From: Syntrophaceae bacterium
GTDB taxonomy: Bacteria > Desulfobacterota > Syntrophia > Syntrophales > PHBD01
Direction of reading: 5' to 3'
NCBI GenBank assembly: GCA_013177825.1
Contig: JABLXX010000002.1
Span: 248,001-312,000, forward strand
Length of the DNA: 64,000 nt
Under the pieces are notes generated by a model. It was not told the origin of the DNA. It made no database searches and was given only the letters and a program-made list of their open reading frames with translations. The translations under genes and the position numbers were made by a program. Positions 61,224 to 64,000 of this stretch are shown one piece after another. Numbering within the stretch: the first letter of the stretch is position 1; each line of letters opens with the position of its first letter.

Positions 61224-62747
61224 ATGAGAACGGAAAACGGCGGTTCTTCCGGCACTGCGGATCGCGATGCGGTCCGTGCGGGGGGAACGGACTATGAGCG
61301 GATCTTCCATCCGCGCCGGGTAGCCGTGGTCGGGGTATCCCCGGGCGGCGGCATCGGTTTCGGGACACGATACCTGACATCCCTCCTGGCCATGGGCTTC
61401 GAGGGGGAGGTCTTCCCCGTCAATCCGAAAGGCGGGGAGATCGCCGGGCTGAGCATTCATAAAAACGTGGAGGACATTCCGGGCGAACTGGACCTGATTG
61501 TCATCGCCGTGGCCGCGGAGGCGGTCATCCCGATCCTCGAGGCCGGCCGGCAAAAAGGTGCCGCCGGGGCCGTCATCATCACCTCCGGGTTCAAGGAGCT
61601 CGGGACCCCCGAGGGGATGGGCCGTGAGGACGAGGTCCGACGGATCGCCGCATCGGGAATCCGGGTGATCGGGCCCAACTGCTTCGGCATCTACTGCCCG
61701 AAGAGCGGCCTCACCTTCTTCCCGAATCCCGACCTGTCGCGGGAAAGCGGCCCCGTCGCCTTCCTGTCGCAGAGCGGCGGCCTGGCGAGCGACTTCATGA
61801 TGACGGGGATGTGGATGGGGCTGCGCTTCAGCAAGGTCGTCAGCTTCGGGAACGGGGCCGACCTGCGGGAGGCGGAGCTCCTGCGCTACCTGGCGGACGA
61901 TCCGGAGACCGGGGTCATCGCCATGTATGTGGAAGGGGTCCGCGACGGAAGCGAATTTCTGGACGCCCTGAAGGCCGCCTCGGGCAAGAAGCCCGTCGTG
62001 ATCCTCAAGGGCGGCCTGTCGTCGGCGGGCGGCCGGGCCGTCGTGAGCCACACGGCATCCCTGGGCGGCAGCCGGGTGATCTGGGAGTCCGTTCTCCGGC
62101 AGGCCGGAGCGGTCCAGGTGCGGGATCTGCAGGAGATGGCCCAGGCCTGCCTGGCCTTTTCGCTGCTCCCCGGAAAAGTGTACCGCGGCCTTTCCTTCAC
62201 CGGCGGGGGAGGGGCCCTGGGCATCGCCGCCTGCGACGCCGCGGAGACATTCGGTCTCGAAGCCCCGCCCCTGGGCGCCGATGCGAGGGGCCAGGTCGAG
62301 GCCCTGCTGCCCAAGTCGGGTGCGAGCGGCGTCAACCCCGTTGACGTTGCGAATCCCTATGCGCCACCGGTGCTCTTGGAGAAGATTTTCCGTGCCGTGG
62401 CCGGCGACAGCCGGATCGATCTGCAGATCCTGATCGTCCTCACCCACCATTTCAAGGGGCTGGCGCAGGACCAGGGCAAGACGGTCGAAGAGGTGTTTCC
62501 ATACCGGGAGCTGGCAGACCGGATGAAGGCCGTGGCCGTGGAAACGGACAAGCCCGTCGTCTTCGTCCTTCCGAACGCCAAGAGAGGATTCCCCGACATG
62601 GACGTCGTGGAGATTCATGCGAAGGTCCGCGAGGCGTTCCTGGAACGGGGACTGCCCGTTTTTGACGAGATCGGGGATGCCATGCGGGCCATCGGGCACG
62701 TCAACCGTTACTACGGGTGCTGCTGCGGGAAGGGGGTAGAGTCATGA
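61224..62747 (+). CDS. ADP-forming acyl/acetyl-CoA synthetase alpha subunit (CoA-binding)
   Basis: 507-residue subunit of the NDP-forming acyl-CoA synthetase (ACD), which makes ATP from acyl-CoA and phosphate. It holds the CoA-binding Rossmann domain (GVSPGGGIGFGTRYL), the ligase domain (VAFLSQSGG), and the phosphohistidine region SHTASLGGS. The larger domain set 1-2-5 is typical of the archaeal alpha type. It overlaps the beta gene by 4 bp. AGAAAGGAGGCGGC precedes the ATG. Confidence 0.93.
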   Translation: MRTENGGSSGTADRDAVRAGGTDYERIFHPRRVAVVGVSPGGGIGFGTRYLTSLLAMGFEGEVFPVNPKGGEIAGLSIHKNVEDIPGELDLIVIAVAAEAVIPILEAGRQKGAAGAVIITSGFKELGTPEGMGREDEVRRIAASGIRVIGPNCFGIYCPKSGLTFFPNPDLSRESGPVAFLSQSGGLASDFMMTGMWMGLRFSKVVSFGNGADLREAELLRYLADDPETGVIAMYVEGVRDGSEFLDALKAASGKKPVVILKGGLSSAGGRAVVSHTASLGGSRVIWESVLRQAGAVQVRDLQEMAQACLAFSLLPGKVYRGLSFTGGGGALGIAACDAAETFGLEAPPLGADARGQVEALLPKSGASGVNPVDVANPYAPPVLLEKIFRAVAGDSRIDLQILIVLTHHFKGLAQDQGKTVEEVFPYRELADRMKAVAVETDKPVVFVLPNAKRGFPDMDVVEIHAKVREAFLERGLPVFDEIGDAMRAIGHVNRYYGCCCGKGVES

Positions 62748-63430
62748 ACAGGGAGCCGGCCATGAAGATCATCGAGGGTGTCCTCGGGGAAGGGCGCAAG
62801 GTCCTGTCGGAGTACGAGTCGAAGCGGGTCCTCGAGGCCTGCGGGATCCCCGTGACGCGGGAAGTCCTTGTCGGCGAGGAAAAGGAAGTCCCCAGGGCGG
62901 CGGCGGAGATCGGGTATCCGCTCGTCATGAAGGGATGCTCCGCCGAGGTCGCCCACAAAACGGAAAAGGGGCTGATCCGCGTGGATGTCCGGACGAACGC
63001 CGAGGCCCTGGCGGCCTTCCGGGAGATCAAGCAAGGTCTGGAGGGCCACAAGGGCGGCGTCCTGATCCAGGAGATGGTCAAGGGGCGCCGCGAACTCGTC
63101 ATGGGACTGACCCGGGACGGCCAGTTCGGACCCTGCGTCATGTTCGGCCTCGGCGGGATCTTCACGGAGATCCTGAAGGACATCGTCTTCCGGAGAGCCC
63201 CCCTCTCCGTGGAGGACGCCATGGCGATGATGCGGGAGATCCGGGCCCACGCGATTCTCGACGCGGTCCGGGGCATGGCGGCGGCGGACCGCGACCGCCT
63301 TGCCGATATGCTGATCCGGTTGGGACGGATCGGGCTTGATTTCGGTTCCGTTCAGGAGATCGACCTGAACCCGGTGATTCTCTCCGGGAAAGACCCCGTC
63401 GTCGTGGACGCCCTGATCGTCCTGACATAA
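62744..63430 (+). CDS. ADP-forming acyl/acetyl-CoA synthetase beta subunit (ATP-grasp)
   Basis: 228-residue ATP-grasp subunit that pairs with the alpha subunit. It shows LEACGIPVTREVLV, GYPLVMKGCSAEVAHKTEKG, VLIQEMVKGRRELVMG and VMFGLGGIFTEILKD. The catalytic pair supports substrate-level phosphorylation from acetyl-, benzoyl- or other acyl-CoA; substrate unknown. Coupled to alpha by an ATGA overlap. Confidence 0.95.
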   Translation: MNREPAMKIIEGVLGEGRKVLSEYESKRVLEACGIPVTREVLVGEEKEVPRAAAEIGYPLVMKGCSAEVAHKTEKGLIRVDVRTNAEALAAFREIKQGLEGHKGGVLIQEMVKGRRELVMGLTRDGQFGPCVMFGLGGIFTEILKDIVFRRAPLSVEDAMAMMREIRAHAILDAVRGMAAADRDRLADMLIRLGRIGLDFGSVQEIDLNPVILSGKDPVVVDALIVLT

Positions 63431-63440
63431 GCATTGTGCC

Positions 63441-63485
63441 GCGGCGGGACATGGAGACCGCTCCTACGGCCCCGTGTCCCGCCGC
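63441..63485 (+). terminator. Long hairpin after the acyl-CoA synthetase operon
   Basis: GCGGCGGGACATGG pairs with CCGTGTCCCGCCGC (14 bp, with one G-T wobble) around a 17-nt loop, starting 11 bp after the beta stop. The following sequence is pyrimidine-rich but has no U-run. Likely terminator or 3' stabiliser. Confidence 0.5.
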
Positions 63486-63601
63486 CTTCCCTTCCGTCCA
63501 CGATCTTGGTCGCTCCTTCGGCTCCGACCGCAATCCACCCCCTGGCTCCTCATCATCGCAAAAGGCGTAATAGCCGGGACCGCTTCATAAGTAGTGGCTC
63601 T

Positions 63602-63632
63602 CAACATATGGAGGCTAATGCGCAACATATGG
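63602..63632 (+). repeat. 21-bp-spaced direct repeats upstream of sigma-54 promoter
   Basis: CAACATATGG at 63602-63611 and again at 63623-63632, exactly two helical turns apart, about 80-110 bp before the sigma-54 promoter. This is the location expected for an enhancer-binding-protein site. Confidence 0.45.
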
Positions 63633-63708
63633 TGCGTTTGCTTTCCCTTCGAGGAGCAGCCATAAAGATTCGTCAATTAATACAAATTGATAGAAGCTGA
63701 CCGCCGGT

Positions 63709-63724
63709 TGGCACCCCTCTTGCA
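63709..63724 (+). promoter_or_regulatory. Consensus sigma-54 (RpoN) promoter
   Basis: TGGCAC-CCCTC-TTGCA, the exact -24/-12 consensus with the right 5-bp spacing. Transcription would start about 12 bp downstream, near 63735, some 80 bp before the TetR gene's ATG. No activator gene is in the window. Confidence 0.75.
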
Positions 63725-63815
63725 AAAAATACTGCGTTTATTGCGGAATACCGCACAACCTTCACTTGCAGCCATTTGCATACGAACGGCCCGCCTCGGG
63801 TTTCAGAACGCTGTG

Positions 63816-64000
63816 ATGGGATTCGAAGAAAGACGACAACGGGAAAAAGACAGCCGCAGAAACTCCATCCTCAAAGCGGCCCGGAGACTCTTCCTGGAGA
63901 AGGGTTTCCGGAACGTCACCGTGGAGAGCATCGCCCGGAAAGCCGAATTCAGCAAGGGGTCCATCTACCTTTACTTCTCCGGAAAGGAAGAGATTTACAC
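63816..64000 (+). CDS. TetR/AcrR family regulator (3' end outside window)
   Basis: The first 61 codons are visible. The helix-turn-helix reads SILKAARRLFLEKGFRNVTV, then SIARKAEFSKGSIYLYFSGK, which is clear for TetR. It is preceded by a consensus sigma-54 promoter, unusual for a TetR gene. The C-terminal ligand domain lies beyond the window. Confidence 0.9.
   Translation, partial: MGFEERRQREKDSRRNSILKAARRLFLEKGFRNVTVESIARKAEFSKGSIYLYFSGKEEIY

Follow-up and report, generated by a model that had tools for sequence, protein, structure and literature searches.

The region at positions 63602-63724 of the window, i.e., the whole 64,000-bp stretch of Syntrophaceae DNA that was analyzed, is probably a sigma-54 promoter with a tandem activator site, which apparently replaced TetR/sigma-70 control in this genus. 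The elements themselves, their conservation, a second target, and the contrast with related loci can be read directly from the genomes compared. Here, G000 refers to the genome containing the window and G001 to the sole other genome of the same genus included in the comparison.

Sigma-54 box, paired repeats, and operon organization

The initial annotation described TGGCAC-N5-TTGCA as an exact RpoN consensus, and the box is present in that form, with GG at -24 and GC at -12 as in the sigma-54 promoter pattern TGGCAC-N5-TTGCW (Table 1). It is the only exact copy in the window, where three copies are found when one mismatch is allowed (1.2 expected). The 4.24-Mb G000 genome contains seven exact boxes and three occurrences of the reversed pattern; by count, the box taken alone is modestly enriched and not beyond chance. 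By our own reading of the loci, all seven exact boxes are located shortly 5' of a start codon in the correct orientation.

The repeat with 21-bp spacing reported upstream of this box was found as described. The starts of the two CAACATATGG sites are 21 bp apart, both copies are exact, and no others occur in the whole window (63602 and 63623 only). For an exact pair, the expectation is 8e-6 per genome at equal base frequencies. The sites begin 107 and 86 bp before the TGG of the -24 box. Sites for enhancer-binding proteins are tandem, in phase, and roughly 80 to 150 bp upstream of the transcription start, and the pair has this arrangement, with a 21-bp spacing that recurs at a second promoter (see below). 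The 16 bp around site 2 (63623-63632) are nearly palindromic, and the remaining sites are weakly so. From the position of the -12 element, transcription is predicted to start at approximately 63735. The reading as a sigma-54 promoter with activator repeats gains support from the conservation in G001 and from the sigma-54 machinery of G000, with its single RpoN, 37 strong activator domains, and 3 weak ones. A search of 63400-63900 found no sigma-70-like site.

The sequence beyond position 64000, to which the initial annotation had looked for the identity of the operon, reveals a beta-oxidation operon. The TetR gene is followed by genes for an acyl-CoA dehydrogenase (621 amino acids [aa]), a 3-hydroxyacyl-CoA dehydrogenase/enoyl-CoA hydratase fusion (806 aa), and a thiolase (396 aa), after which comes a PAS hybrid histidine kinase. 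The choice of 63816 as the TetR start codon is plausible, since the related gene in G001 also begins with ATG. As expected of a FadR-like protein, the regulator has a TetR_N domain and is linked to beta-oxidation genes; its best NCBIfam model is FadR, at 70.4 bits, which is below the cut-off of 200. Upstream of the spacer, an ADP-forming acyl-CoA ligase is encoded by two overlapping genes, alpha then beta (61224-62747 and 62717-63430). The hairpin predicted after this upstream gene possibly insulates the operon.

TABLE 1 Features of the predicted sigma-54 promoter region and its surroundings (positions in the window)
Feature	Position	Strand	Remarks
Spacer, 385 bp, from upstream ligase gene to TetR gene	63431..63815	.	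No sigma-70-like site found
Strong G+C-rich hairpin after upstream gene, without T run	63441..63485	+	RNA fold of 63431-63540, z-score -3.96
Upstream activator site 1 (putative), CAACATATGG	63602..63611	+	Exact; identical in G001 (10/10 bases)
Upstream activator site 2 (putative), CAACATATGG	63623..63632	+	Exact; 9/10 bases kept in G001
Degenerate TetR operator-like sequence TGACCGCCGGTTG	63698..63710	.	8/10 letters of TGACCN3GGTCA; abuts the -24 element with a 2-bp overlap
Sigma-54 promoter (predicted), TGGCAC-N5-TTGCA (-24/-12), TGGCACCCCTCTTGCA	63709..63724	+	Exact consensus; 15/16 bases kept in G001
TetR-family regulator, 209 aa, first gene of operon	63816..64000, continues to L009:6445	+	Pfam TetR_N, 5.8e-17

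Conservation of the elements in G001

When the spacer was aligned to its counterpart in G001, 41 of the 44 element positions (93%) were the same, whereas identity over the remaining 341 spacer positions was 44% (Fisher P of 6e-11, from this single genome pair). These 44 positions comprise the repeats and the box, both named in the initial annotation, plus an 8-bp stretch before the -24 element that was added after the alignment had been made. Of the four longest conserved runs of the spacer, 63695-63706 precedes the -24 element, 63718-63728 covers the -12 part, 63601-63611 the first repeat, and 63708-63716 the -24 part. Since they are conserved within an otherwise diverged spacer, this supports a functional role for the box and the repeats. 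The acyl-CoA dehydrogenase of the same operon in G001 is 96% identical to that of G000.

TetR-linked operons of relatives and the apparent change of promoter class

Relatives of the TetR protein were present in 95 of 119 genomes (116 matches listed, own count). Upstream regions were inspected for 70 rows, mostly the best-scoring ones with some gaps, which represent 69 distinct loci, as one G001 locus was counted twice (L038 and L041); three rows have less than 450 bp of upstream sequence. The comparison set besides the studied locus thus consists of 69 rows (68 distinct loci). At 29 of the 32 loci checked, the TetR gene directly precedes the same acyl-CoA dehydrogenase gene.

None of the 69 rows has a sigma-54 score above 0.85 upstream of the TetR gene; the best, 0.84, lies 427 bp upstream, and the studied locus scores 0.98. 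TTGACA occurs upstream in 64 of the 69 rows (8.7 expected), and a TGACCN3GGTCA operator with 9 to 10 of 10 letters in 64 of the 69, versus 9 of 1,380 random controls. Both are absent at the studied locus. G000 and G001 each also carry a paralogous operon (TetR 57% identical) that keeps the canonical TGACCN3GGTCA operator. A search for -35/-10 elements there recovered a sigma-70-like pair in G001 and none in G000, although this is a weak test that also scores 47 of 70 random controls as positive. Among the named genomes scanned, no close relative turned up; the best outside matches were 52 to 60% identical. For six other large acyl-CoA dehydrogenase paralogs, the only box scoring at least 0.88 in the fetched upstream stretches lies inside an open frame, and sigma-54 control of these paralogs was rejected on that ground.

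As the 68 other TetR loci have no comparable sigma-54 box and possess TTGACA and the operator instead, the studied locus appears to have undergone a switch. By parsimony, its direction was apparently from sigma-70/TetR to sigma-54/activator within the genus. The claim that sigma-54 control of a TetR-family gene is uncommon holds insofar as such control was seen at none of the other loci sampled for this family; the interest lies more in that contrast than in control of a TetR gene as such. A different history, in which the sigma-54 promoter is ancestral or arrived with a transferred operon, would be compatible with the same mechanism. It is in keeping with the long branch of the TetR protein (0.84, see below) and with the acyl-CoA dehydrogenase and TetR trees, neither of which places the locus firmly. 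However, none of the 68 other sampled loci of the family, which cover many families of the order, carries such a box, and the dehydrogenase is closest (about 75% identity) to the TetR-linked copies of relatives. We therefore consider this history rather unlikely and favor replacement within the genus.

State of the TetR gene and its putative operator

The operator-like sequence TGACCGCCGGTTG adjoining the -24 element is possibly what remains of a TetR operator. By chance, at least 8/10 letters would match in 1.5% of 67-bp stretches and in 11.6% of whole spacers of this size. The match is therefore significant for the neighborhood of the box but not for the spacer as a whole, and the sequence is suggestive only. 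Its counterpart in G001 matches at 7/10 letters and keeps the TGACC half and the GCCG that follows. The DNA-binding helix of the TetR protein, SKGSIYLYF, is identical to that of its paralog, so the protein may still recognize TGACC half-sites.

In G001, the TetR gene has been reduced to a remnant (L118, G001:C25) in which most of the interior is missing and the reading frame stops after 54 codons, with the promoter elements kept. Given that G001 is in about 90 contigs, this deletion could be a misassembly. The end branch of the G000 TetR protein is the longest in its tree (0.84, compared to 0.26 for the paralog pair), and the dehydrogenase is not accelerated. In our reading, the TetR protein is a repressor that is probably being lost in the wake of the promoter change. 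This also bears on the initial proposal that the promoter drives a TetR gene. TetR is indeed the first gene of the operon, but selection more likely acts on the beta-oxidation enzymes, since G001 retains the promoter and the repeats and has a TetR gene with an internal deletion.

A second promoter with the same repeat pair

Scanning for the repeat near other sigma-54 promoters, as the initial annotation had advised, yielded the pair at one more promoter, with the same spacing, in both G000 and G001. Absence of the repeat from other relevant promoters had been named there as grounds for refutation, and the reading passed this check. With up to three mismatches, the pair occurs at two places in G000 and two in G001, which are the same two promoters. 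The other 117 genomes gave 16 matches, and the reversed pattern gave 15 over all 119. Because the rates are equal, the matches in the other 117 genomes are read as chance, being judged by count against the control.

At the second promoter (G000:C1:929943-930063; G001:C6:18768), the pair lies 106 to 107 bp before TGGCACTTTCTTTGCG, and the distance from site 1 to the TGG is 106 or 107 bp at all four promoters, two in each genome. The gene downstream encodes a flavin-dependent oxidoreductase of 539 aa (Pfam Amino_oxidase and NAD_binding_8). The second site at this promoter is CAACATACCG or CAACATTCCG, which shrinks the core common to the eight sites to CAACAT (CAATAT in one), and the palindrome that a dimeric activator would be expected to bind is poor here. 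Sites in inverted orientation before TGGCAC gave no match in G000 or G001. A third match of CAACATAT followed by TGGCAC in G001 (G001:C8:89393) was rejected, as it lacks a second repeat and, judged by eye, resembles coding sequence. A looser motif search of 197 genomes returned 15 single matches outside the genus, compared to 7 for the reversed pattern, and is uninformative on a wider regulon.

PAS-rich hybrid histidine kinases with similar N-termini are encoded beside both promoters (L009:12533-16477; L165:18347 onward). They may or may not be related to the regulation of these targets.

The gene of a large sigma-54 activator beginning MSRND (L166:13622-16867) is located near the second promoter in both G000 and G001. 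The region in which it stands divergent from an acyl-CoA dehydrogenase gene is L166:13622-17066 (G000:C1, about 945.6 to 949.1 kb) and L167:1400-4851 in G001. The protein contains a weak TPR match, a GAF domain, a sigma-54 activation domain, and a Fis-type helix-turn-helix. The divergent dehydrogenase gene is preceded by the box TGGCACCTTTTGTGCA, conserved as TGGCATCTTTTGTGCA in G001, and is a candidate for a further sigma-54-controlled gene. Since this sigma-54-like box comes without CAACATATGG, we do not name the MSRND protein as the activator, and a role for it as the regulator of CAACATATGG is not supported.

It is also conceivable that the sigma-54 promoter is real and that the regulator binding the CAACATATGG pair is not an enhancer-binding protein but, for instance, TetR itself or a loop-modulating response regulator. 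The sites look less like palindromes than like direct repeats sharing a CAACAT core, no activator gene is adjacent, and both targets have a hybrid histidine kinase gene next to them. Activator sites nevertheless usually lie where sites starting 86 and 107 bp before a -24 box fall. As for TetR, the motif of its family is TGACCN3GGTCA, G001 retains the sites even though its local TetR gene is not intact, and no TetR gene was seen adjoining the second promoter. Binding by such a regulator is distinctly unlikely, and we retain a tandem enhancer-binding site as the preferred reading. That the box and repeats are products of chance, and that the operon is read from an unrecognized sigma-70-type promoter under TetR, is hardly credible: with seven exact boxes per genome against three reversed, a single box would not be surprising in 64 kb, but the G001 conservation is concentrated on the elements, a second promoter has the same pair and spacing, no sigma-70-like site turned up in 63400-63900, and TTGACA, present in 64 of the 69 comparison rows, is absent.

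Discussion

In the mechanism proposed here, an enhancer-binding protein would bind the two CAACATATGG sites, which are two helical turns apart and centered at about -128 and -107 relative to the predicted start. The bound activator would then loop to RNA polymerase-sigma-54 at TGGCAC-N5-TTGCA and open the promoter via ATP hydrolysis. For activator binding, looping, ATP-driven opening, and the start site, we infer from general sigma-54 biology. The transcript would comprise the TetR-family regulator and the beta-oxidation genes (dehydrogenase, hydroxyacyl-CoA dehydrogenase/hydratase, and thiolase), and elsewhere in the genome, the same activator would drive the flavin-dependent oxidoreductase gene. 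In the ancestral state, a sigma-70-type promoter would have been blocked by the TetR protein at TGACCN3GGTCA. The weakest step, to which we give somewhat less than even credence, is that the degenerate operator abutting the -24 box may still let the TetR protein brake the operon.

Several parts of this scheme have counterparts in known systems. The Escherichia coli atoDAEB operon has a sigma-54 promoter at which the NtrC-type AtoC acts through a paired upstream site (PMC3118216). It thus resembles the present locus in combining a sigma-54 promoter on a fatty-acid-catabolic operon with a paired upstream site. However, the AtoC sites are two inverted 20-bp sequences with a known activator, whereas here the sites are tandem copies of CAACATATGG, the activator is putative, and the first gene encodes a TetR-type protein. 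In Vibrio harveyi, qrr4 has a sigma-54 promoter at which the TetR-type LuxR and LuxO act together (PMC2628434). There, too, a TetR-type protein and a sigma-54 activator share one promoter, although TetR binding is putative here, the genes differ, and LuxR activates at qrr4, whereas the TetR protein, if bound, would repress against the -24 box.

Like PsrA, FadP, and Bacillus FadR, the regulator studied here is a TetR-type protein associated with beta-oxidation genes, with FadR as its best NCBIfam model. It scores far under the FadR cut-off, and the motif of its family is TGACCN3GGTCA. As far as is known, the regulons of PsrA, FadP, and Bacillus FadR are of the sigma-70 type. PsrA and FadP act as TetR repressors of beta-oxidation genes (PMC5343134). 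For Bacillota, acyl-CoA and hydroxyacyl-CoA dehydrogenases have been predicted as sigma-54 targets (PMC12316311); this is a different phylum, and the accessible part of that study describes no TetR replacement. Synthetic sigma-54 enhancers in which TetR between the activator sites and the promoter alters expression (PMC4740811) were engineered in E. coli, unlike the natural locus here. A survey of sigma-54 regulation in Desulfovibrio gives many activator motifs (PMC4641369). Our literature search, conducted largely without subscription papers, returned no report of this operon, the motif, or its sigma-54 control in Syntrophales.

AtoC thus already provides a case of sigma-54 control of short-chain fatty-acid catabolism, and Vibrio LuxR one of a TetR-type protein acting at a sigma-54 promoter. 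The newer part would be a swap of promoter class that leaves the former repressor in place, as suggested by two genomes against 68 other loci, and as a case of apparent rewiring it seems unusually clear. Syntrophic fatty-acid degraders carry out beta-oxidation at the energetic limit, and little is known of how their operons are switched. A sigma-54 promoter would provide a low-leak off-state and tie expression to an ATP-using activator. With a paralog that keeps the older operator and a sister species that lacks the repressor, the proposed change of promoter class is directly testable. It is about equally likely to be right or wrong that one of two paralogous operons swapped its promoter class and joined a small new regulon, with the repressor serving as a brake in one species and lost in the sister. 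If true, intermediate stages of a regulatory takeover would be visible side by side.
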